Positions 16,810-35,201 of a stretch of 41,340 nt of DNA are shown here, piece after piece. The translations under genes and the position numbers were made by a program. The notes beneath the pieces were generated by a model. It worked only from the letters and a program-made list of their open reading frames with translations. It made no database searches and was not told where the DNA came from. Location of the stretch: NCBI GenBank assembly GCA_016794805.1, contig JAEUJI010000048.1, forward strand, positions 1 to 41,340, in the 5' to 3' direction. Numbering within the stretch: position 1 is the first letter of the stretch; each line of letters opens with the position of its first letter. Source of the stretch: Gemmatimonadota bacterium. GTDB taxonomy: Bacteria; Gemmatimonadota; Gemmatimonadetes; Gemmatimonadales; GWC2-71-9.

Positions 16810-18201
16810 ATGCGCGACACCGATACGCCGATCAAGGCCGGCCAGCCTATCCCCTACCCGCCCAAGCGCGAGTACGTGGAGCCGGACTGGACCCGGCTGC
16901 CGGGCTACAAGGGTGTCACCCAGGAGGAGTGGGAGAACGCCACCTGGCAGCGCAAGCACACCGTCAAGAACCTGCGCGAGTTCAAGGACGCCCTGGGCCA
17001 CCTGCTGCCCGAGGACCTGGCCCTGAGCATCGGCCAGGACATGGAGCAGCGCGCCACCATGTCCATGCTCATCCCCCCGCACATGCTCAACACCATGAAC
17101 ATGGCGGACCTCTGGCACGACCCGGTGCGGCGCTACATGGCGCCGGCCCTGGCCGACCGGCTCACCGAGTGGGCCAACCATCCCAAGGCCTCACGGGACA
17201 GCCTGCACGAGCATGACATGTGGGTGGCGGAGGGGCTCACCCATCGCTACCCCACCAAGGTGCTGGCGGAGATGCTCTCCACCTGTCCCCAGTACTGCGG
17301 CCACTGCACCCGGATGGACCTGGTCGGCAACGACGTCCCCCAGGTGACCAAGCTCAAGTTCGCGATGCCGCAGAAGGACCGGCACCAGGCCATGCTGGAT
17401 TACCTGCGGAAGACGCCCAGCGTCCGGGACGTCGTGGTGTCCGGCGGCGACATCGCCAACCTGCACATCACCCAGCTGGAGCCGTTTGTCTCCGCCCTGC
17501 TGGACATCCCGAACATCCGCGACATCCGGCTCGCCTCGAAGGGACTGATCGGGCTGCCGCAGCATTACCTGCAGGACGGTGTGCTCGCCGGGCTGGAGCG
17601 GCTGGCGAAGAAGGCCTTCGACCGCGGCGTGGACCTGGCGCTCCACACCCACGCCAACAGCGCCCAGCAGGTGACCCCGCTCGTGGGCAAGGCCACCAAG
17701 AAGCTGCTGGAGATCGGCTTCCGCGATGTGCGCAACCAGGGCGTGCTGCTCCGGGGGGTGAACGCCACCACCCAGGAGCTGCTCGACCTCTGCTTCATGC
17801 TGCTCGATCATGCCAAGATCATGCCCTACTACTTCTACATGTGCGACATGATCCCCAACAGCGAGCACTGGCGGGTGTCGGTGGCGGAGGCCCAGCAGCT
17901 GCAGCACGACATCATGGGCTACCTCCCCGGGTTCGCCACGCCGCGCATCGTCTGCGACGTGCCCTTCGTCGGCAAGCGCTGGGTGCACCAGGTGGCCGAG
18001 TACGACCGGGAGAAGGGCATCAGCTACTGGACCAAGAACTACCTCACCAGCATCGAGTGGGGCAACCACGCGGCGCTGCAGCAGCAGTACGCCTACTACG
18101 ACCCGATCCACACCCTGCCCGAGTCGGGGCAGCGCTGGTGGCGCGCGCACGAGGCCGAGATGGCCCGGGCGTCCGAGGGCACGCACGCGGTGCACGCGTA
18201 A
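16810..18201 (+). CDS. KamA-family radical SAM 2,3-aminomutase, divergent subtype
   Basis: Predicted PLP- and SAM-dependent migration of an alpha-amino group to C-3, as in lysine 2,3-aminomutase. 463 aa, the size of full-length KamA rather than the shorter EpmB. The Fe-S ligand motif CPQYCGHC supplies Cys159, Cys163 and Cys166; the following Thr-Arg keeps Arg168, which aligns with the carboxylate-binding Arg134 of clostridial LAM. The PLP-binding lysine is probably Lys389 (VPFVGKRW). Differences from classical LAM: CTRRR is CTRMD here, SRTPVVLPQR is SKGLIGLPQH, and GVND is GVNA, while the YxxCD Asp (Asp346) is kept. The substrate may be lysine or another amino acid. ATG 16810 has GAGGG upstream. 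It is followed by a class III aminotransferase on the same strand. Confidence 0.85.
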   Translation: MRDTDTPIKAGQPIPYPPKREYVEPDWTRLPGYKGVTQEEWENATWQRKHTVKNLREFKDALGHLLPEDLALSIGQDMEQRATMSMLIPPHMLNTMNMADLWHDPVRRYMAPALADRLTEWANHPKASRDSLHEHDMWVAEGLTHRYPTKVLAEMLSTCPQYCGHCTRMDLVGNDVPQVTKLKFAMPQKDRHQAMLDYLRKTPSVRDVVVSGGDIANLHITQLEPFVSALLDIPNIRDIRLASKGLIGLPQHYLQDGVLAGLERLAKKAFDRGVDLALHTHANSAQQVTPLVGKATKKLLEIGFRDVRNQGVLLRGVNATTQELLDLCFMLLDHAKIMPYYFYMCDMIPNSEHWRVSVAEAQQLQHDIMGYLPGFATPRIVCDVPFVGKRWVHQVAEYDREKGISYWTKNYLTSIEWGNHAALQQQYAYYDPIHTLPESGQRWWRAHEAEMARASEGTHAVHA

Positions 18202-23701: not shown

Positions 23702-24171
23702 AGCTCGGGGCAGCCTTCGCGGCGGCGGGTGTCCGCCAGCGAGATGATCTTCCACTCCGCGCCTTCCTTCGCGATGAGGAACGCATCCACCCCGCAGTGG
23801 CTCAGCTTGGTCCCGAGGTAGAAGGTGTAGTCCATCCAGACCGTGGCGAGGGTACCGTCCTGGTGTACCACCTCGTTGGCCACCCGCTCGTCCCACACCT
23901 CCGCATGCGGCGTGCCCACCGCCTTCACGAAGCCGTCCACCCCGCCATCCACGTTGACCGTGGGCGTGCCCTGCCGCACGAACGCCGAGGCCATGAACAC
24001 CTTGGGATGGAAGACGGAGCGGACCATGGCGCTGTCGCCGGCGCGCATGCCGTCGAAGAGCCGCTTCGTCACCGCCAGGATCGCGTCACGGTCGGGGGCC
24101 TGCTGCGCGGCAAGTGGGGCGGCGACGGTGAGGGAAGCCAGCAGGAGGGTCGCATGTCGAAGCATCAGCAT
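23698..24171 (-). CDS. Exported NTF2-like (DUF4440/SnoaL-like) protein
   Basis: 157 residues. A signal peptide from ATG 24171 (or ATG 24165) has the core [14 protein letters not shown]. The domain is a cone-shaped NTF2-like fold: [29 protein letters not shown], then [47 protein letters not shown]. Such domains serve as small-molecule binders or weak enzymes, so no specific role can be given. It overlaps csaA and lies 43 bp after cutC. Confidence 0.8.
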
Positions 24172-24214
24172 TCTCAGGATTCCGGGGTTGAGGGTGCGGG
24201 ATGTACGGTGGCCG

Positions 24215-24904
24215 TCAGGTCCGGGTTTCCGGCGTGGTGAGTGCCCGGATGACGCCTTCGAGTTCGGCGACGTCGAGCCCGGCGCCATCGGGCAGGCGCG
24301 GTCCGAGGTGAATCTCCCGGACGCCGGTCAGCTGCACCAGGCGGGCGACGTGATCGGCGCGGACCCCGCCGCCGGCGAGGATCGTCACCGTGGCCCCGAA
24401 CCGCTGGACCAGCCGACGCAGCGTGTCGGCGCCCGCCAGCGCGGTCGGCGCCCCGCCCGAGGTGAGTACCCGGCCGATCCCGAGCTCCGCCAGCGTGGCC
24501 ACCGCCGCCCCGAGGTCCGGGACCTGGTCGATGGCGCGGTGGAAGCTGACCGCGAGGGGCCGCGCCCGCGCCACGAGCCGGGCCACCAGGTCCCGATCCA
24601 CTCCGCCCTCCGTGCTGAGCGCGCCGATGACCACGCCATCGGCCCCCGCCAGCTTCAGGTCGTGGAGGTCGGTGAGCATGGCATCCACGTCCCCGTCGTC
24701 ATAGCGGAAATCGCCGGGGCGGGGACGGAGCAGCACCTGCAGGGGCAGCTCCACCCGCCGGCGCACGGCCCGCACCAGGCCGGCGCTCGGCGTGACGCCC
24801 CCCTCCGCCAGGCCGGCGCAGAGTTCCAGGCGGCCGGCGCCCGCGCGCCCGGCCGCCACCGCGCCCGCGACACTCTCCACCGCCGCTTCGACCAGCACAT
24901 GCAT
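24215..24904 (-). CDS. cutC: CutC family protein
   Basis: 229 residues forming a TIM-barrel. Hallmarks: VLVEAAVESVAGAVAAGRAGAGRLELCAGLAEGGVTPSAGLV near the N-terminus, VLLRPRPGDFRYDD, GADGVVIGALSTEGGVD, FHRAIDQVPD and VLTSGGAPTALAG. The family is named for copper homeostasis, though its biochemical activity is unsettled. ATG 24904 gives the usual start; an in-frame codon at 24946 is less likely. Confidence 0.92.
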   Translation of the reverse strand: MHVLVEAAVESVAGAVAAGRAGAGRLELCAGLAEGGVTPSAGLVRAVRRRVELPLQVLLRPRPGDFRYDDGDVDAMLTDLHDLKLAGADGVVIGALSTEGGVDRDLVARLVARARPLAVSFHRAIDQVPDLGAAVATLAELGIGRVLTSGGAPTALAGADTLRRLVQRFGATVTILAGGGVRADHVARLVQLTGVREIHLGPRLPDGAGLDVAELEGVIRALTTPETRT

Positions 24905-24917
24905 CAGGACCGCCTCG

Positions 24918-24972
24918 GATAGTGCGCCCCGCAACCCCGGGGTCAACTTGCGGAAGCGCCGGGCCCTGTCAA
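24918..24972 (-). promoter_or_regulatory. Putative leftward promoter(s) of cutC
   Basis: On the minus strand TTGACC (24941-24946) lies 17 bp from ACTATC (24918-24923), a passable -35/-10 pair. A second TTGACA (24967-24972) lies 26 bp further upstream and makes an AGTTGAC direct repeat. The -10 elements are weak. Confidence 0.3.
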
Positions 24973-25035: not shown

Positions 25036-26079
25036 ATGATGCAGCAGCTGTTCGACCGGTCTCTCTTTTCCGTGGGCGGGGTGACCTATACCTGGAAGGA
25101 CGTGATCCTCTTTGCCATGCTGAGCGGCCGGTGGCGGCCGCTGGAGCGGGCCATCCGGGAGGGGCTTGCCTGCGTCCGCCGCGTCGAGGCGGACGACATC
25201 GAGGAACCGGAGGAGGCGGTCGATGCCTATGCCGCGGAGTTCCGCTACGCCCGGGATCTCATCACCGCCGAGGAGACGGAGGCCTGGCTCGAGGAACGGG
25301 GGGTCGAGACGTCGGAGTGGATGGACTGGGTGCGGCGCGAGGCGCTGCGCACCCTGTGGGCCGCGGAGCTCCCCGCCCTGGTCCTCCGGTTCCCGGCGGA
25401 TGCGGCGGAGGTCGCCGAGGCGGCCACCGCCGACCTGCTCTGCTCCGGCAAGGGCGAGGCGTTTGCGAACGGGCTGGCGGAACGGGTGGCCGCGACGGCC
25501 GCGCTGCTGGAGGCCGGCGAGGAACTGGAGGTGGAGTTGCCCGACGGGGCGCTGGAGCGGGTGCTGGACCACCTCCCCGAGCTGGACCCGGAGGAGACCG
25601 AAGCCACGCTGCTCCACCTCGCCGTGCTGGACCAGGGGCTGGCCCGCTTCCGGGAGCTCGCCGCCACCCCCGAGCTCATCCACCGGGAGCTGGAGCTGGG
25701 CCGCCTGGAATGGATCCGGCTGGATTGCCGGGTCATCCAGTTCCCCACCGAGGCGCTGGCCCGGGAGGCGGTGCTGTGCGTCCGGGAGGACGGGATGGGG
25801 GTGGACGAGGTCGCCGAGAGCGCCCACGCCCAGGTCCACGAAATGCGGTTCTACCTCGGGGAGCTGGACCCCGACCTGCAGCCCCGGCTGCTCGCGGCCC
25901 TGCCCCAGGAGCTCATCGGGCCGGCCCCCTTCGAGGAGCAGTACGCCCTGTTCCTGGTGCTGGACAAGGTGCTGCCGGACGAGCGGGCCCCCGCCCTCCG
26001 CCGGGAGATCGAGCGCCGCGCGGTGGACCGGGCGGTGGCCGAGCAGGTCTCCCGCCGGGTCCAGTGGCAGGCGGGCTGA
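25036..26079 (+). CDS. Parvulin (PpiC)-like peptide-export accessory protein
   Basis: 347 residues, acidic, no signal peptide. The N-terminal half is helical and resembles SurA/PpiC-type chaperone segments (GGVTYTWKDVILFAMLSGRWRPL). The C-terminal third fits a degenerate parvulin domain: RVIQFPTEALAREAVLCVREDGMGVDEVAE, FYLGELDPDLQPRLLAALPQELIGPAPFEEQYALFLVLDKVLPD. Catalytic PPIase residues are not clearly kept, so it may be a binding protein rather than an isomerase. Such proteins occur beside C39-type peptide transporters. Here it directly precedes the transporter gene, suggesting help in handling the exported peptides. ATG 25036 is followed by a second ATG at 25039. Confidence 0.65.
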   Translation: MMQQLFDRSLFSVGGVTYTWKDVILFAMLSGRWRPLERAIREGLACVRRVEADDIEEPEEAVDAYAAEFRYARDLITAEETEAWLEERGVETSEWMDWVRREALRTLWAAELPALVLRFPADAAEVAEAATADLLCSGKGEAFANGLAERVAATAALLEAGEELEVELPDGALERVLDHLPELDPEETEATLLHLAVLDQGLARFRELAATPELIHRELELGRLEWIRLDCRVIQFPTEALAREAVLCVREDGMGVDEVAESAHAQVHEMRFYLGELDPDLQPRLLAALPQELIGPAPFEEQYALFLVLDKVLPDERAPALRREIERRAVDRAVAEQVSRRVQWQAG

Positions 26080-26211
26080 CCCTCCCGGCCGGCCGGATCG
26101 CCTTGCGAAGCGGTCAATCGGCGGCATACTACCCAAGACCCCGACCCCTCAGCCCAGAACCACCCAGGCCAGACTGTTCCCTGAGCCGCGCCCTGGACAC
26201 GCGACCCGGGA

Positions 26212-29200
26212 GTGGCGCACGCCGGAGCGTTCGTGGAGAGCAGCGAGCTCGAGACCATCCTGCAGCAGGTGAGCATCCTCCAGTTCCTCCCGCCGGACGT
26301 GCGGGACCTGGTGGAGGCCAGCTTCGTGCCGGCCAGCTACAGCTTCGGCCAGGAGATCATCCGCGAGGGTGAACCGGCCGATGCGCTGTACGTGCTGGTC
26401 GCGGGCCGCGCGCGGGTGCTCAAGCGCTCCGATACCGGCGATGAAATTTCCCTCGGTACCATCCGGGCCGGCGAGACCTTTGGCGAGGGTGACCTGCTCG
26501 GCGCCGGCACCCGGGCTACCACGGTGCGGGCCAGCTCCGACGTGGAAGTGCTGCGCCTGGACCAGTCGGTCGTGGATGCGCTGATCCGGAAGCGGCCCGA
26601 GATCCGGCAGTACCTCGAACTCCAGTCCCGCCACCGCCACCTGCAGGGCTTCTTCCGGCAGTTCGCCGTCTTCGCCACGCTGCCGCCCGAGGCCACCGCG
26701 GCGCTGCTCCGGGCGCTGGAGCCGGTGGAGGTGCCGGCCGGCGCCGACATCGTCCGCGACGGGGACCCGCCCGGTCCCATGTACATCATCGAGGAGGGGC
26801 GCTGCCGGGTCCACATCGGGGTGGACGGCCGCCGGCGCAATGTGGCCTTCCTCCGGCGGGGGGAGTTCTTCGGCGAGTTCTCGGTGTTCCGCGACATGCC
26901 CCGGACCGCGACGGTGGAGTCCGTCACCCCCTGCCGCCTGCTCCGGCTGACGCAGGAGACCTACCGGGGGCTGCTCGATGCGTACCCCGAATTCCGCGAC
27001 GCGATCGAGGCCCGGATCGCGCAGTACGACTTCCGGCACACGGCGCAGATCCCGATCGACCTGTTCCAGGAGCTGCTCCCCGCCGACGCCGCGCGCCGGG
27101 ACACCGTCGGCCACGACCAGATCGACGAGGACGTGAGCGGGCCGGCGCGGGGGCGGGCGGACGCCGAGGAGGCGCCCTTCGCCGACGACGAGGGCCGGTT
27201 CGTCAAGCACCGGAAGCGGATCCGGCGCTTCCCGCACCTGTGGCAGATCGACGAGATGGACTGCGGGGCCACCAGCCTGGCGATCATCTGCCGCCACTTC
27301 GGGAAGGCGATCAGCCTGGCCCGCATCCGGCAGCTGGTTCACACCGGCCTGGATGGCGCCAGCCTGCGCGCCATCTGCCAGGGCGCCACCGAACTGGGGC
27401 TGGCCGCGCGGGCCGTGAAGGCCTCGCCCACCAACGTCCACCAGATGCCGCTGCCGGCCATCGTGCACTGGGAGGGCAACCACTGGGTGGTGCTGTACGA
27501 CGTGGGCAAGGACCACGTGCGGGTCTCGGACCCCGGGGTGGGGAAGCGGCGGATCCCGCGGGCGGAGTTCGACGCGAAGTGGACCGGCTACGCCGCGCTG
27601 TTCGACTACACCACCGAGTTCGAGAAGAACGAGGAAAGCCGCCTCGGCATCGCCTGGCTGCTGCCGTTCTTCCAGCCGTTCCTGGGGCTGATCGCGCGGT
27701 GCACCGCGCTGGCGCTGATCGTGAGCGCCCTGCAGATGGTGATCCCGGTCTTCACCCAGGTGATCGTGGACCGGGTGCTGGTGGAGGGCGACCTCCAGCT
27801 GCTCAACATCCTGATCATCGGCATGGGGCTGGTGATCCTGATGTCGCTGGTGGCCGCCCTGGTGGAGCGCTACCTGCTGGCATGGATGGCGGTGCGGATC
27901 GACTCGGGCACCCTCGACTTCCTCACCCGGCGGCTGCTCAGCCTCCCGATGTCCTACTTCAACAGCCGCCGCACCGGCGACATCCAGCGGCGGCTGGCCG
28001 GCATCTGGCAGGTGCGCGAGTTCCTGGTGGAGCATGGCAGCGCCGGCCTCACCGCCGCCGCCCAGCTGCTCTCGGCGCTGGGGCTGATGCTGGTGTACAG
28101 CCCCAAGCTCACGCTGGTCTTCCTGGCCACCGTGCCGGTGTTCGTGGTCGTCCTCAAGGTGAGCGCCAACTGGCTCTACCCGCTCTACGCCGAGCTGGAG
28201 GAGACCTACGGCAAGTACCAGTCGTTCCAGATCGACGCCATCAAGGGGATCGAGACGGTCAAGTCGCTGGGGGCGGAGTACTCCTTCCGCGACCTCATGC
28301 TGCGGCAGTTCAACAGCGTGGCGCGCAGCCGGTTCAAGGCCGACTACACCCTCATGACCTACAACGGGGTGGTGCACAGCATCACCCTCGTCTCGATGGT
28401 GCTGTTCCTGCTGGTGGGCGCCCGGGAGGTGCTGGCGGGGCACATGTCCATCGGCGCGCTGGTGGCGTTCAACGCCCTGGTGGCGCTGGCGAACGCCCCG
28501 ATCCTGACGCTCATGTACCTGTGGGACGACATGCAGCAGGCGGCGGTGTACCTGAACCGGCTGGACGACATCTTCCAGCAGGAGCCGGAACAGGGACACG
28601 ATCGCTCCCGGCTGCTGCCGGTCCGCTCGCTCGAGGGCCGGATCGGGGTGCGGCACATGAGCTTCCGGTACGGCGGACCGGAGTCGCCGGCGATCCTCGA
28701 GGACCTCACGTTCGAGGTGCCGCCCAACACGATGGTCGCCATCGTGGGCCGGAGCGGCTCGGGCAAGACCACGCTGATCAAGATCCTCGCCGGGCTGCTG
28801 GAGCCGACCGAGGGCACCATCCTGTACGACGGCATCGACCTCAAGACGCTCAACTACCGCGAGCTGCGCCGCAAGATCGGCTTCGTGCTGCAGGAGAACC
28901 ACCTCTTCGACGATACCGTGGCCCGCAACATCGGCTTCGGCGAGGAGGAGCCCGACATGGACAAGGTGATGTGGGCGGCGCAGGTCGCGAACGCGCGCGA
29001 GTTCATCGAGCGGCTGCCGCTGGGCTACGACACCCGCATCGGGGAATCGGGGCTGGGCCTGTCCGGCGGCCAGCGGCAGCGGGTGGCGATCGCGCGGGCG
29101 ATCTACAACCGCCCCCCGGTCCTGATCTTCGACGAGGCCACCAGCGCGCTCGACACCGAGAGCGAGCGGGCGGTGAAGGAGAACATCGACCAGCTGCTCG

Positions 29201-29367
29201 AGGGGCGGACCTCGTTCGTGATCGCCCACCGGCTCTCCACCGTGCGCGACGCCGACCTGATCCTGGTGCTGGAGAAGGGCAGGCTGGTCGAGCAGGGCAC
29301 GCACGACGACCTGATGCGCCGCCAGGGACTGTACTACTTCCTGGTCAGCCAGCAGCTGCAACTCTAG
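26212..29367 (+). CDS. Peptidase-containing ABC transporter (C39) with two N-terminal cNMP-binding-like domains
   Basis: 1051 aa if started at GTG 26212; GTG 26233 has the better GGAG spacing. Order: two cyclic-nucleotide-binding-like domains (about 20-135 and 145-270; SFGQEIIREGEPADALYVLVAGRARV and GADIVRDGDPPGPMYIIEEG), an acidic linker, a C39 peptidase (about 335-455), about six membrane helices (480-750), and the ATPase. The C39 site is intact: Gln345, Cys351 (DEMDCG), His424 (GNHWVV), Asp440 (VSDPG). In the ATPase, Walker A Lys852, signature LSGGQ at 950-954, Walker B Glu975 and H-loop His1006 are all present. The protein should cut double-glycine leaders in the cytoplasm and export the peptide. 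The HlyD gene follows 6 bp later. Confidence 0.95.
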   Translation: MAHAGAFVESSELETILQQVSILQFLPPDVRDLVEASFVPASYSFGQEIIREGEPADALYVLVAGRARVLKRSDTGDEISLGTIRAGETFGEGDLLGAGTRATTVRASSDVEVLRLDQSVVDALIRKRPEIRQYLELQSRHRHLQGFFRQFAVFATLPPEATAALLRALEPVEVPAGADIVRDGDPPGPMYIIEEGRCRVHIGVDGRRRNVAFLRRGEFFGEFSVFRDMPRTATVESVTPCRLLRLTQETYRGLLDAYPEFRDAIEARIAQYDFRHTAQIPIDLFQELLPADAARRDTVGHDQIDEDVSGPARGRADAEEAPFADDEGRFVKHRKRIRRFPHLWQIDEMDCGATSLAIICRHFGKAISLARIRQLVHTGLDGASLRAICQGATELGLAARAVKASPTNVHQMPLPAIVHWEGNHWVVLYDVGKDHVRVSDPGVGKRRIPRAEFDAKWTGYAALFDYTTEFEKNEESRLGIAWLLPFFQPFLGLIARCTALALIVSALQMVIPVFTQVIVDRVLVEGDLQLLNILIIGMGLVILMSLVAALVERYLLAWMAVRIDSGTLDFLTRRLLSLPMSYFNSRRTGDIQRRLAGIWQVREFLVEHGSAGLTAAAQLLSALGLMLVYSPKLTLVFLATVPVFVVVLKVSANWLYPLYAELEETYGKYQSFQIDAIKGIETVKSLGAEYSFRDLMLRQFNSVARSRFKADYTLMTYNGVVHSITLVSMVLFLLVGAREVLAGHMSIGALVAFNALVALANAPILTLMYLWDDMQQAAVYLNRLDDIFQQEPEQGHDRSRLLPVRSLEGRIGVRHMSFRYGGPESPAILEDLTFEVPPNTMVAIVGRSGSGKTTLIKILAGLLEPTEGTILYDGIDLKTLNYRELRRKIGFVLQENHLFDDTVARNIGFGEEEPDMDKVMWAAQVANAREFIERLPLGYDTRIGESGLGLSGGQRQRVAIARAIYNRPPVLIFDEATSALDTESERAVKENIDQLLEGRTSFVIAHRLSTVRDADLILVLEKGRLVEQGTHDDLMRRQGLYYFLVSQQLQL

Positions 29368-29373
29368 GACGCC

Positions 29374-30587
29374 ATGCCGCGCACCGACCTGGACGCCTCC
29401 GCCGAGTTCCTCGACACCGAGCCCCCCCACTGGGCGGCGCGGGGCCTGGCCTGGGTCATCATCGGGCTGGTCCTGATCGCGGTGCTCGCCGCCATCGTGG
29501 TGCAGGTGCCGGAGACGGTGAGCGGGCGCTTCACCCTGGCCCCGGTCGATGGCGCCGACCCCGTCCGGGTGCGCAAGGATGGCATCGTCACCGCGGTCAC
29601 GGTGCGGGAGGGGGACACGGTGCCGGCCGGGGCCACCCTGGTGATGCTGCGCTCCCCCTCCCTCAGCGATCGCGCCGGGGAGCGGCGGACCATCGAGACC
29701 CAGCGCCGGGCCGACCAGGACCGCCTCCGGATCCTCGGCAGCCAGTACCAGACCCGGAAACGCGCCGACGAGGCCGAAGCCCGGCGGCTGCGCGCCCGGA
29801 TGGAGTCGCTCAAGCGGCTGATCACCTCGAAGGAGCGCCGGCTGGCGCTGATGCGGGAACTGGCGGACAGCGCGGGTTCCGGCTTCCGGAGCGGCGCCGT
29901 CAACCGGCTGGAGGTGGCCCGCATGGACCTCGAGGTGTCCACGTTGCAGGAGGAAGTCCAGAACGCCGGCAACGACCTCGAGGACGCCGCCGCCGACCTC
30001 GCCCGGCTGGGCCGGGACGGCCAGGCGCGGGATCTCGAGTACGAAGACGCGCGCCGGAGCCTGGAGGAATCGGTGGAGACGGCGGGCATCCGGATCGAGG
30101 CGCTGGGCCGTGACCTCGAGGGGTTGACGGAGGATGGCCTCGCCGTCACTGCCCCCTGCCGGGGCACGGTGCTGCGGCTCCATGTCAGCGCCGCCGGGGC
30201 CCTGGTCCGCGAGGGGGAGGTCATCAGCGAGATCGCCTGCGCCGGCGCGCGGCTCCAGGCGGAGTTCGCGGTGCCGCAGAGCGGCCTCCCCCAGATTCGC
30301 GCGGGACAGCGGGTGAAGCTCCGCTACGACGCCTTCCCCTACCAGCGCTACGGGATCCGCTTCGGCCAGGTGCGCTGGGTGGGGCCCGCCGGCCTCGGCG
30401 ACCGCGACAGCAGCTTCCGGGCGGTGGTGGACCTGGCCGAGGATTCGATCCGGGTGCGGGGCCAGGAGCGGGCGCTGCTGGCGGGGATGCAGGGACAGGC
30501 GGACGTGGTGGTGGGCCGGCGGTCGCTGGTGAGCTATGCCATCGAGCCGATCCGGGCGCTGCGGGAAAACTTCCGGGACCCGCCGCC

Positions 30588-30591
<4 letters not shown>
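29374..30591 (+). CDS. HlyD-family membrane fusion protein
   Basis: Periplasmic adaptor that connects the ABC transporter to an outer-membrane channel, 405 aa. One N-terminal membrane anchor (about residues 22-48, AWVIIGLVLIAVLAAIVV) is followed by a lipoyl/barrel-sandwich half (GIVTAVTVREGDTVPAGATL), a long coiled coil (about 90-235, rich in Arg/Glu heptads), the second lipoyl half (APCRGTVLRLHVSAAGALVREGEVISEIA) and a beta-barrel. ATG 29374 begins 6 bp after the transporter stop, and the stop overlaps the sigma-54 activator start at 30588, so the three are one operon. No outer-membrane factor gene is present in the window. Confidence 0.93.
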
Positions 30592-31592
<1,001 letters not shown>

Positions 31593-31601
31593 ACCGCGCC
31601 T

Positions 31602-31618
31602 GGTAGCGCACCGCTACC
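31602..31618. promoter_or_regulatory. Palindrome after the activator gene: possible activator site or terminator
   Basis: GGTAGCG and CGCTACC are perfect inverted halves around CAC. It starts 10 bp after the activator stop and lies about 120 bp upstream of the predicted start of transcription for the peptide genes. That is the usual distance for enhancer sites of sigma-54 activators. A short terminator is the alternative; no T-run follows. Confidence 0.4.
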
Positions 31619-31713: not shown

Positions 31714-31729
31714 TGGTCCGGGGTTTGCC
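31714..31729 (+). promoter_or_regulatory. Candidate sigma-54 (-24/-12) promoter of the peptide genes
   Basis: TGGTCCGGGGTTTGCC matches the consensus TGGCACG-N4-TTGCW at TGG, CG and TTGC, with GG and GC separated by exactly 10 bp. Transcription would start near 31740, leaving a ~47-nt leader with GGAGG before the first peptide gene. It sits between a sigma-54 activator gene and the peptide genes. Confidence 0.55.
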
Positions 31730-31786
31730 AGTACCATGAGCATCACGCAGCACCGTCGTACCCCTCACCCCACTCCGGAGGTTACC

Positions 31787-31909
31787 ATGGCGGACAAGAA
31801 GAAGATCAAGGACCTGCCCAAGAAGTCCGTAAGCAGCAAGAAGGCCGGCGCGGTCACCGGTGGCGCCAAGAAGAAGGCCCCCTCGCTCCTCCGTCGGCGC
31901 GCGAACTGA
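31787..31909 (+). CDS. Double-glycine leader peptide precursor 1, cationic (40 aa)
   Basis: A 40-residue precursor. Residues 1-26 read as a leader: Lys-rich start, then IKDLPKK, ending VTGG, which fits the GG cut site of C39 peptidases (DLP-x-V-x-GG pattern). Cutting after Gly26 releases AKKKAPSLLRRRAN, 14 residues and strongly positive. ATG 31787 has a near-ideal GGAGG seven bases upstream and a sigma-54-like promoter further up. Nothing else in the window looks like a substrate for the C39 transporter encoded 2.4 kb upstream except the next small gene. The core has no Cys, so lanthionine-type modification is not expected. Function (antimicrobial, signal, other) is unknown. Confidence 0.75.
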   Translation: MADKKKIKDLPKKSVSSKKAGAVTGGAKKKAPSLLRRRAN

Positions 31910-31932
31910 TTCTCCGCGGGTGCCCGAAGCGT

Positions 31933-31954
31933 GGGCGGCCCCCTGGGGCCGCCC
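31933..31954. terminator. GC hairpin between the two peptide genes
   Basis: GGGCGGCCCC and GGGGCCGCCC form a perfect stem around CT, 24 bp after the first peptide stop. A T-run is missing. It could be a partial terminator or an RNA-stabilising element that makes more of the first peptide than of the second. Confidence 0.5.
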
Positions 31955-31988
31955 GCGCGCTCACCCGACCTTTCCGCACGAGTCCGCC

Positions 31989-32153
31989 ATGACAGAGCGC
32001 AAGCCGCGCAAGACCCGATCCACCCGGACCAAGGAAGGGGAGATCGTGCGGCTGGAGGACCTGGCCCCGCCCGAAGATGTCCGCGGCGGGGGCCGGAAGC
32101 GGCTGTTCGGCGAAGAGACCCCCCGCCGCCCACCCCGCAAGCCCGGCGGCTGA
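31989..32153 (+). CDS. Double-glycine leader peptide precursor 2, cationic (54 aa)
   Basis: A 54-residue protein from ATG 31989. Residues 18-34 (EIVRLEDLAPPEDVRGG) resemble a C39 leader with its double glycine at 33-34; the first 15 residues are basic. Cutting would give a 20-residue Arg/Pro-rich product beginning GRKRLFGEE. It follows precursor 1 by 79 bp on the same strand, and the two share the DL-P-x-V-x-GG leader pattern but not the core. The ribosome binding site is weak. Its downstream end faces the BTAD regulator gene. As a short, basic, low-complexity reading frame it is less certain than precursor 1. Confidence 0.6.
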   Translation: MTERKPRKTRSTRTKEGEIVRLEDLAPPEDVRGGGRKRLFGEETPRRPPRKPGG

Positions 32154-32186: not shown

Positions 32187-35100
32187 CTACTGGCGGCGCT
32201 CCAGCATCAGCATCGCGCGGCCGCGCGCGTTGGCGATCCGTGGCGTGAACCTCGGATCCGCCCCCTCCCAGGCCTTGACCAGCCGCTGGTAGTGGTAGGC
32301 GGCGCTGTCCCGCTGGCCGGCGGCCTCGAAGGCCTCCGCCAGGGCCTCGCCCAGGTCGGTATGGGTGACGTACAGGTTGGACCCCTCGAACATCCCGCGC
32401 AGCGCGCTCTGCAGGATCGCCACCGCCTCCCGCGGCCGCCCCAGCCGGGTCAGGGTCCGGCCCAGGACCAGGTTGACCCGGGTATAGCCGACGTTGGGGG
32501 ACAGGATCGAGCGGCGGAACAGCTGGACGGCCTCACCTTCCCTGCCGCGCGCCAGGGCCAGCAGCCCTTCCACGTAATAGTGCAGCCGCTGGTCCCGCGC
32601 GAAGGCGCTCTGCCGGCCCAGCACCCGGATGGTGTCGGCCAGGCCGGCGAGCCGGGTGGTGTCTCCCTGCGCGGCAAGCACTCCCGCGGCGTGGGTCAGC
32701 GCCCAGACCCGGTTCCGGGAAACGGCCGAGGAATCCTCCCCGCTGACCCGCCCCCGGGCGACGGAATCGAAGAGCGCCGCCGCGGCCCGGTAGGCGCCCT
32801 GCTCGAACAGCACCTGGGCCTCGAGCAGCGCCGTGGTGGGCGCGGCCCCGGGCCGGCTCTGTTCGCCCCGGGTGGCGCGGTAGCGGCGCGCGGCCACCAG
32901 CGCCTCTTCCAGCCGCCCCTGCTGCCGGAGTACCACCGCCAGCATCCACGACGCCTCGACGCGCTCATCCGGGTCAGCGGAATGCAGCTGGCCCCGCACC
33001 ACCTCCGCGGCGGTTGCAAAGTCCCAGCGCCAGAGCTGATTCGCCGTGTGATAGCGCCAGGTCTTCGGGTCCCGCGGCAGCAGGCTGTCCGCGCGCGCCA
33101 GCGCGGAATCCGCCGCCGCGAACGCCCCGGACTGGGCCAGCAGCATGGCCAGCGTGCGCCACGCGACCCCGGATCCGGGCTGCAGCCGGGTCCATCGCCG
33201 GCCAACGGCGACCGCCGCGGCGATGGAGTCCTCCTGGATGTAGGAGGAGTAGAGGGCCGGCATCGCCTCGCAGGCCAGGCAGCGCGGGGTGCTCCCCCGG
33301 AGCCCGAGGGAGTCCCGCGCGATGACGGTCTCGAGCGGGCCGTGCGCCGCCTCGTAGTCCCCGGCGAGGATGGCCGCCTGCCCGGCCATCAGGTACCCCT
33401 CCAGTTCCGCGGGGTAGCGGACCATGAGCGTTTCCGCGATGGCCCGCAGGGAGGGGGAGGTGTTGACGAATGCCCACGCGGCGTTGACCAGCAGCCGTTC
33501 CCGGTCGCTGGCCCGCCGCGCCAGGTCCACCGCGCGCCGGAGCCGCGCCACCGTCTCGGTGCGCAGCCCGGGCGACGTGCTCAGGGCGTAGAAGAACTGC
33601 GCCATCGCAAACGCCGAGTCGGCCTTGAGCGCCTCCTGGAACTGCCGCTCGGCTTCGGCACGCTCCCCCGCGTAGTAGAGCCGGAGCCCCGCCTCGTACA
33701 GCTGGTAGGCCCGCACCGAGCGGGTGGAGACGTCCGCCAGCGAGCCGGCCAGCGGCGTGCCGCCGAGATCGCGGAGCAGGCGGGCGGTGCCGCTGTCGGC
33801 CAGCAGGAAGAGGTTCTCCCCTTCGACCGTATACGCCTCGAGCACCGCGCCGCTGGCCAGGTCCGTGCGGCGGAGGTCGAGCCGCATCCGTCCGGGCGCG
33901 AGGTCGTAGAGGGCGCCATCCACCAGTTCCGTGGCGCCGGATTGCCGCGCCGCCGCGACGCTCGCGACGGCGGTGTCGGCGGCGTCCGGCAGCTGGCGCA
34001 TCACCTCGACCATGCGGGCGTTGCTCACCACCCGGAGTCCGCGGGTCCGGGCCAGGTTGGTGGCCAGCATGTCCGCCATCGGCGCGCCCAGCGCGCCCGC
34101 GCCGGCGGCGGCGTAGTGGCTGATCCGGCCGACCGCCACCACCCGCTCCGGCGCAGCCATCGCCGCGGAGCGGACCAGGTGGGCCCGCCAGACATGCCTG
34201 GCCAGCGGCACCAGGAGGGCGGCGACCACGGCCACGAGCACCCACCGGGCCCGGCGCCGCCACGCCTGCCTCGGCTGCGGTGGCGGCTCCGCCGGCGCCC
34301 CCAACCCGAAACCGCCGCCGACGGCCCATCCGCTGGTATGTCCCAGGTCGAGGGAACCGCTCGGGCGGCTGGGGCGTGAGGGGGGATCCACGGCGGTGCG
34401 CCCTGCCGGGGCGCTTGCTGCCTGGGGCTCGGGCGGTGAGGAAGGCGCTGGAGGGGGTGAGGTGGGCGCGGCCGCCGGCGCGCCCTGCCGCTGTCCGCCG
34501 CGGAGCTGCTCCGCCAGCGCCACCACCTCCCGGTCGGGAGCGAGGTCCAGCTCCTGCCGCACCAGCGTCTCGTAGACGCGCGCATGCTGCAGCGCCCCGG
34601 CCACGTCCCCACCCGCGGCCAGCGAACGCATCAGGCGGGCGGCGACCTGGGCATTCATCGGGTCCTGGGCCGCCAGCTTCCTGAACCACCCCACCGCACC
34701 CCGATGGTCCCCACGCTCGTTGCAGCGGGCCGCGAGCTGCTCCAGCAGGTCGGACCATTCATGGGCCAGCCCGCTGCGCTGTTCTTCCGCCCAGCGCTCG
34801 AAGGGATCCGCCTCCGGCAGGTGGAAGCCATCCAGAAACGGCCCGCGATAGCACTCGGCGGCGCGCTCCAGGTCCCCTGCGGCGAGGGTGTCATGGAACT
34901 CGGCGTAGTCGCTGGTGACTTGATCGGGGTTGAGGCGCAGGTCCTTGAGGCCGAGCAGTGCCTCGTCCGAACCGAGGTCCCGGCGGAGGGCGTAGAGCGC
35001 CTGGGTCAGGGCGCGACGGCCACGTTCCTCATCGGCGTCGGGCCAGAGATAGGCGATCAGGGCGTCGCGAGTTGCGCCACGATCCCCGGCCACCGCCAGC

Positions 35101-35201
35101 AGGGCAAGGAGGGCCAGCCGACGGGGCTGGGCGGCGGCCCCGGTGAGGGGGCGCCCCTCACCCGTCACGAACAGCCCGCCTAAGACGTTGATCCTGAGCA
35201 C
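32187..35201 (-). CDS. BTAD/SARP-like transcriptional regulator with TPR domain and membrane segment
   Basis: 1004 residues. The N-terminus is an OmpR-type winged helix (RRLALLALLAVAGDRGATRDALIAYLWPDADEERGRRALTQALYALRRDLG, about residues 25-80) joined to a bacterial transcriptional activation domain (about 95-240). A Pro/Ala linker leads to one membrane helix (about 315-340, RWVLVAVVAALLVPLA). A long C-terminal part contains a TolB-like region and many TPR-like helices. This large SARP-like, membrane-attached form is typical of Gemmatimonadota. GTG 35201 is the apparent start, and no clear Shine-Dalgarno sequence is visible, so the mRNA may be leaderless. It is divergent from the 35392-39720 genes and may regulate them. 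Confidence 0.88.
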   Translation of the reverse strand: MLRINVLGGLFVTGEGRPLTGAAAQPRRLALLALLAVAGDRGATRDALIAYLWPDADEERGRRALTQALYALRRDLGSDEALLGLKDLRLNPDQVTSDYAEFHDTLAAGDLERAAECYRGPFLDGFHLPEADPFERWAEEQRSGLAHEWSDLLEQLAARCNERGDHRGAVGWFRKLAAQDPMNAQVAARLMRSLAAGGDVAGALQHARVYETLVRQELDLAPDREVVALAEQLRGGQRQGAPAAAPTSPPPAPSSPPEPQAASAPAGRTAVDPPSRPSRPSGSLDLGHTSGWAVGGGFGLGAPAEPPPQPRQAWRRRARWVLVAVVAALLVPLARHVWRAHLVRSAAMAAPERVVAVGRISHYAAAGAGALGAPMADMLATNLARTRGLRVVSNARMVEVMRQLPDAADTAVASVAAARQSGATELVDGALYDLAPGRMRLDLRRTDLASGAVLEAYTVEGENLFLLADSGTARLLRDLGGTPLAGSLADVSTRSVRAYQLYEAGLRLYYAGERAEAERQFQEALKADSAFAMAQFFYALSTSPGLRTETVARLRRAVDLARRASDRERLLVNAAWAFVNTSPSLRAIAETLMVRYPAELEGYLMAGQAAILAGDYEAAHGPLETVIARDSLGLRGSTPRCLACEAMPALYSSYIQEDSIAAAVAVGRRWTRLQPGSGVAWRTLAMLLAQSGAFAAADSALARADSLLPRDPKTWRYHTANQLWRWDFATAAEVVRGQLHSADPDERVEASWMLAVVLRQQGRLEEALVAARRYRATRGEQSRPGAAPTTALLEAQVLFEQGAYRAAAALFDSVARGRVSGEDSSAVSRNRVWALTHAAGVLAAQGDTTRLAGLADTIRVLGRQSAFARDQRLHYYVEGLLALARGREGEAVQLFRRSILSPNVGYTRVNLVLGRTLTRLGRPREAVAILQSALRGMFEGSNLYVTHTDLGEALAEAFEAAGQRDSAAYHYQRLVKAWEGADPRFTPRIANARGRAMLMLERRQ

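Follow-up and report, generated by a model that had tools for sequence, protein, structure and literature searches.

A predicted pair of double-glycine peptides beside a cNMP-C39 exporter and a sigma-54 activator in Gemmatimonadales

A Gemmatimonadales genome carries two short genes, P1 and P2, at the end of an operon for a SurA-like protein, an ABC exporter with a C39 peptidase domain, an HlyD-type adaptor and a sigma-54 activator. We consider it quite probable that P1 and P2 encode double-glycine peptides which the neighbouring transporter cleaves and secretes and which are switched on through sigma-54. Taken separately, export is highly likely for P1 and fairly likely for P2. A preliminary description of this DNA had proposed exported double-glycine peptides. 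The adjacent C39 ABC exporter with HlyD, similar leaders beside homologous exporters and a synonymous bias in P2 all bear that proposal out. Below, the window is the whole stretch of DNA analysed, 41,340 nucleotides long.

The operon runs on the plus strand in the order SurA-like partner, exporter, HlyD adaptor, sigma-54 activator, P1 and P2. The partner is a SurA/PpiC-like ("maturation") protein of 347 amino acids (25036..26079, start codon picked by homology), a distant relative of NCBIfam TIGR04500. According to Pfam, the exporter (26212..29367, 1051 amino acids) has two N-terminal cNMP-binding domains, a C39 peptidase domain, and ABC membrane and ATPase domains. The HlyD-type periplasmic adaptor (29374..30591; PF13437, TIGR01843) and the sigma-54 activator (30588..31592), an AAA+ protein with a GAFTGA loop and a Fis-type HTH (PF00158, PF02954), follow. 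After the end of the activator at 31592 come 194 bp, P1, 79 bp and P2.

Both open reading frames were present as previously placed, and the lengths given for the parts after Gly-Gly, 14 and 20 residues, were correct. P1 (31787..31909) encodes 40 amino acids: a 26-residue leader ending in VTGG, MADKKKIKDLPKKSVSSKKAGAVTGG, and, after the cut, a basic core of 14 residues, AKKKAPSLLRRRAN. P2 (31989..32153) encodes 54 amino acids, with a 34-residue leader ending in VRGG, MTERKPRKTRSTRTKEGEIVRLEDLAPPEDVRGG, and a 20-residue core beginning GRKRLFGEE, GRKRLFGEETPRRPPRKPGG. P1 is preceded by a GGAGG ribosome-binding site (31777..31781); that of P2 is weak. No Pfam or NCBIfam family matched P1 or P2.

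From the SurA-like gene through P2, the operon yielded no modifying enzyme of the lanthipeptide or graspetide type, the remaining window being partly annotated; nor did we recognise a gene for a receptor or for immunity. Two neighbours were dropped from the system. The ORF at 23843-24922 overlies the real minus-strand genes, which encode CutC and a lumazine-binding-like protein. The BTAD/TPR gene at 32187-35201 on the minus strand is convergent with P2, and in the relative G010 an aminotransferase-like frame, judged by eye, stands after P2 in its place. The BTAD-domain TPR protein matches TIGR04510 (putative peptide modification system cyclase) weakly, at 50.6 versus 400 bits. Elsewhere in the window (16810-18198), a radical SAM gene of the KamA/lysine 2,3-aminomutase family lies beside aminotransferase genes; it is metabolic by annotation and unlinked to the peptides.

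The C39 domain spans about residues 335-470 of the exporter. Its Cys/His/Asp, C351, H424 and D440, and both cNMP domains are kept in six homologues; at the level of sequence, the catalytic residues are intact. SurA-like protein, long C39 exporter and HlyD lie together at 25036-30591, all three homologues occur in the relatives G001, G104 and G180, and in relatives the SurA-like homologue is beside or near the exporter. The window's SurA-like protein scores 35.1 bits against TIGR04500 (PpiC_rel_mature), under the 180-bit cut-off. Its AlphaFold model, folded with homologues, reached a pLDDT of 92.5. Foldseek matched the model to SurA/PrsA chaperones (best E 6.7e-5) with whole-chain TM-scores of ~0.2-0.3, and therefore the domain arrangement differs; it also matched parvulin domains (TM 0.69 to 3gpk, target-normalised). 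The modelling supports a SurA-like fold. The protein is probably cytoplasmic, because no signal peptide was seen by eye. The genome has many matches to OEP-family genes, which are candidates for a TolC-type outer-membrane channel.

The genomes compared were mostly fragmented assemblies, and the named records are MAGs. Searching 61 genomes with single sequences recovered P1 along with P2 from G001, of the same genus, and from G010, of another genus in the same family. When a P2 profile was run over the order (250 genomes), it brought in G243 (E 1e-12) and G180 (E 1e-7). Confident matches (E<1e-6) thus stood in five genomes and no others; three of these seeded the profile, and G180 and G243 are independent finds. 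The exporter, searched for separately, was present in 7 of the 250: G000 (the window's genome in our five-locus comparison), G001, G002, G010, G104, G180 and G243. All five confident P2 genomes have it. A naive hypergeometric calculation gives 3e-9 for this, though the genomes are interrelated and three of them served as seeds for the profile; counting the two independent finds only, the value is ~2e-4 (4/247 x 3/246). Weak P2 profile matches (E 7.7e-4 to 0.05, e.g. G191) were mostly partial and inside long frames and were put down to chance, and a match in G213 (1.4e-4, second profile) was treated likewise. No precursor was found on the G191 contig.

Four other Gemmatimonadales genomes (G001, G010, G180 and G243) therefore keep the set. 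G180 has all six genes, in this order, on a single contig. The set of G001, G010 and G243 is divided between two contigs each, whose ends fit, which suggests adjacency there. The activator homologues of all four relatives are 64-74% identical to that of the window. It had been proposed that short frames near C39 transporters be searched for similar leaders, and such leaders were found beside the homologous exporters of relatives; their absence, named beforehand as a refuting outcome, thus did not occur. In a 395-genome sample of the phylum, the exporter occurred in members of this order only. With one genome per GTDB species, four P2 loci were found, all in records named as Gemmatimonadota MAGs, by a pattern strict enough that distant relatives could escape it.

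The two remaining exporter genomes, G002 and G104, had no sigma-54 gene on the stretches read; other short ORFs with GG leaders lie within a few kb. In G002 (L101:6482-8353), the exporter, 84% identical over the protein, is near genes for a LanC-like protein, a Ser/Thr kinase-TPR protein and an ECF sigma factor. A precursor near the LanC-like gene, whose leader ends in DLPLAPGDAAKVKGG and is followed by KLYEQCTTGTHIKAVTIETSA, has Cys, Thr and Ser; this may be a lanthipeptide-like cluster served by an exporter of the same clade. Two more GG-leader ORFs of G002 (VRGG/IRGG; L101:15231-15622) are convergent with the SurA-like gene, and their cores end in LKYKQPGP and LSFGKLGMEYKPQ. In G104 (L102:4541-4947), two tandem GG-leader ORFs ~3 kb upstream of the exporter have near-identical leader ends (TLSAKNAKQVKGG) and differing cores.

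We compared the leaders of P1 and P2, which had been described as sharing a DL-P-x-V-x-GG spacing. Both do contain DL, a Pro close by and V-x-GG, but the distance is not shared: DL to GG spans 14 residues in P1 and 7 in P2. In the P1 of G000, G010, G180 and G243, 14 residues separate DL (or NL/SL) from GG, and 13 in that of G001; the P2 distance of 7 becomes 9 in G180. A profile comparison of P1 with P2 aligned 17 columns only through a 7-residue gap, with 37% probability. On these two grounds a single leader family with equal spacing was rejected. P1 and P2 leaders appear to be distinct classes (spacers of 13-14 and 7-9), at best two related ones. All 16 precursors of the five genomes have V or I at -4 plus GG, for some by construction of the motif search, and in P2 the GG and Val -4 are invariant. 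The P1 leaders of G000, G001 (copies a-d) and G010 also have Ala at -7 and V/I/M at -12. P2 has no hydrophobic residues at -7 and -12, and the P1 leaders of G180 and G243 have none or only part of them; this and the very short P1 cores count against export. RtgAB-type exporters depend less on leader hydrophobics at -7, -12 (and -15).

The view that the leader is conserved and the core variable held for P1 and broke down for P2. G001 has four P1 copies, of which c and d agree in 84/84 nt of leader DNA, followed by cores that bear no relation to each other, GISTSPGKTKK and KRTGWRQP. The four copies lie in 1.5 kb (L093:16089-17600) with similar surrounding DNA and hairpins after several of them, which looks like recent duplication with core replacement. 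P2 conservation, in contrast, runs past the cut site into the core as [KR]xLFGE or RFGE (KRLFGE in the window). Because it crosses the cut, and because the spacer classes differ, the picture of one leader family with swapped cores fails for P2.

The same block could mean that only P1 is exported and that P2 is a non-exported accessory which binds the exporter or its partner, with the residues across GG as its docking motif. In favour are the conservation of P2 to either side of GG, its lack of the -7/-12 hydrophobics and its charged tails, which vary at both termini. Against this, its GG and Val -4 never vary, and a fifth short ORF of G001 (G001e), DLIPRNTSSIKGGRRIF, has the P2-like motif together with a short leader and core, and looks like the P2 class by its DL-GG distance. 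We regard the accessory explanation as fairly unlikely and retain export of both peptides.

As to what the exported peptides do, we lean slightly towards signalling. The released peptides resemble signals or small modulators more than they do bacteriocins that form pores: the cores are short (14 and 20 residues; 5-14 in the P1 of relatives), have no Cys and are accompanied by no modifying enzyme found in the operon. An antimicrobial role, perhaps as a class IIb-type two-peptide pair leaving through the same exporter, is unlikely in our judgement. It would suit the presence of two GG precursors side by side, the C39 exporter and the basic cores. Class IIb bacteriocins, however, consist of two complementary amphiphilic peptides of ~25-50 residues, and P1 and P2 cores, at 5-20 residues, are hydrophilic and well under that size, apart from one P2 core of 32; a class IIb pair was rejected on core size. 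No immunity gene was recognised in the P1/P2 gap, the number of P1 copies varies (one in the window, four in G001), and P2-type genes are not paired with them one to one. The equivalent cyanobacterial clusters have nevertheless been named bacteriocin clusters (PMC3140520).

We also asked how firmly P1 and P2 stand as genes. Their GC content at codon position 3 (0.90 for P1, 0.85 for P2) resembles that of neighbouring genes. When ATG ORFs of 25-65 amino acids were scanned for DL-x(3-18)-V-x-GG, exactly two were found in the 41-kb window, P1 and P2, in the same 594-bp gap; shuffling predicted 0.17 per window (60 shuffles). In the conserved block of P2, the window and G001 differ by 10 synonymous and 5 non-synonymous codon changes, against 11.4 non-synonymous changes expected, and 0/2000 simulations gave so few. 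The other five pairs gave p <0.0005 to 0.0095, the pairs not being independent. These counts indicate purifying selection on the P2 block. The suggested check for synonymous bias therefore succeeded in P2, and the pairwise counts for P1 were too small or the sequences too diverged. We take P1 and P2 to be real genes and, because relatives have the same gene set, very probably real secreted peptides. Spurious frames do abound in GC-rich DNA, and P1 and P2 are both short and basic, with P1 N-termini rich in Lys and Ala, but chance frames, or small Lys-rich intracellular (nucleic-acid-binding) proteins unrelated to the exporter, are very improbable in view of the motif count, the selection on P2, the recurrent V/I-x-GG, the confinement of confident P2 matches to exporter-positive genomes and the acidic or near-neutral leaders of G180 and G243.

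A sigma-54-type -24/-12 promoter, TGGTCCGGGGTTTGCC, is predicted at 31714..31729, 57 nt before P1. A TGG-N10-GC site was found before P1 in 5/5 loci, at distances of 57 (G000), 99 (G180), 52 (G243), 58 (G010) and 79 nt (G001), with shuffle p values of 0.029, 0.135, 0.001, 0.008 and 0.004, respectively. Combined, the five loci give p ~1.7e-6. Support from a single locus is modest, and because scores just as high turn up at other places in the GC-rich window, the strength of the promoter evidence is its recurrence. The GAFTGA of the activator is also present in its homologues, and no N-terminal sensor domain was found in it. RpoN is encoded in the genome, so that the -24/-12 site, the GAFTGA activator and RpoN of a sigma-54 regulated gene are all there in sequence. 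A perfect 7-3-7 palindrome without strand, GGTAGCG-CAC-CGCTACC (31602..31618), lies ~95 bp upstream of the sigma-54 box and is, speculatively, a candidate enhancer site for the activator; no enhancer consensus common to the relatives was found. Between P1 and P2 is a strong RNA hairpin with a 13-bp stem and no visible T-run (31929..31958). Its z is -2.9 in the window; hairpins after G001 P1 genes have -4.3 and -5.7 and that of G010 -2.4, and in G180 and G243 the hairpin is weak or absent. That it sets the level of P1 over P2 is a guess.

From these features we infer how the system may work. P1 and P2 would be transcribed by sigma-54 RNA polymerase under the drive of the activator, whose gene lies immediately before them. 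The C39 domain of the adjacent exporter would bind each leader and cut after Gly-Gly, and the core would leave by way of HlyD and an outer-membrane channel of the TolC type, whose gene lies elsewhere. The probable task of the SurA-like protein is to present or protect the precursors. Export is probably gated at the tandem cNMP-type domains, in response to a nucleotide signal from the cytoplasm. P1 would be the variable peptide and P2 its constant companion, with P1 RNA perhaps favoured by the intervening hairpin. A tentative elaboration, which we put well below the export proposal itself, is sigma-54-switched and nucleotide-gated signalling: the activator would turn on the precursors in response to a starvation-type signal, the tandem cNMP domains would open the exporter in that same state, perhaps by sensing ppGpp like that of HetC, and the variable P1 messenger would be released with constant P2. 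If true, a cNMP-domain C39 exporter would gain identified substrates.

The exporter core of SurA, CAP_ED-C39-ABC and HlyD is already known; it was described in cyanobacteria in 2011 (PMC3140520). The sigma-54 module, the P1/P2 pair and the Gemmatimonadales lineage are new here. None of these three was found in the open-access literature searched, and we therefore regard the system as a variant of a known exporter kind. The same literature held nothing on point for sigma-54-controlled GG peptides and no description of a secreted peptide family in Gemmatimonadota, to which this locus adds a predicted one. Since a cNMP-C39 exporter recurs in relatives beside two candidate substrates, substrate recognition, nucleotide gating and sigma-54 control become directly testable.

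In gene content, the locus resembles the cyanobacterial "bacteriocin" clusters of groups I, II and VI, where a SurA-type protein, a long-type exporter with N-terminal CAP_ED/cNMP, C39 and ABC domains, and HlyD adjoin small unannotated precursors (PMC3140520; groups also used in PMC4558948). Unlike those clusters, it has two cNMP domains by Pfam, a sigma-54 activator and promoter, and precursors that match no Pfam or NCBIfam family, and it belongs to another phylum. For HetP-like proteins of cyanobacteria, the motif KIxDLxYLEx10GG was described close to long-type C39 clusters (PMC3140520); the KIxDL start and 14-residue DL-GG distance of P1 match it as a pattern, without implying homology.

In the rosaritide cluster (PMC13097080), MirC/MirD (TIGR04500/TIGR03796) likewise place a SurA-like partner beside a C39 exporter. 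MirC, which is required for graspetide synthesis (PMC13097080), also resembles our partner in its likely cytoplasmic place. Rosaritide has an ATP-grasp graspetide synthetase, whereas none was found in the window operon, and the window partner reaches 35 versus 180 bits. The pneumococcal ComAB/BlpAB/RtgAB peptides (PMC7018657) share the GG leader and hydrophobic -4, and the window P1 also has the hydrophobic -12 and Ala -7; those systems are Gram-positive with other regulators, and P2 differs at -7/-12. In the EbfG1-4/PteB system of Synechococcus elongatus (PMC4997328), likened here by description, one C39 transporter exports several small GG proteins in a Gram-negative-type cell, and a biofilm function has been shown there.

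The characterised relative of the window exporter is HetC of Nostoc PCC 7120, which has the same HetC-type architecture of cNMP, C39 and ABC in one chain. In vitro, the HetC cNMP domain binds ppGpp, and in vivo HetC function needs this domain; HetC has no known substrate, and no GG precursor is encoded nearby (PMC10986499). That paper describes one cNMP domain in HetC, whereas the window exporter has two, with its candidate substrates adjacent.
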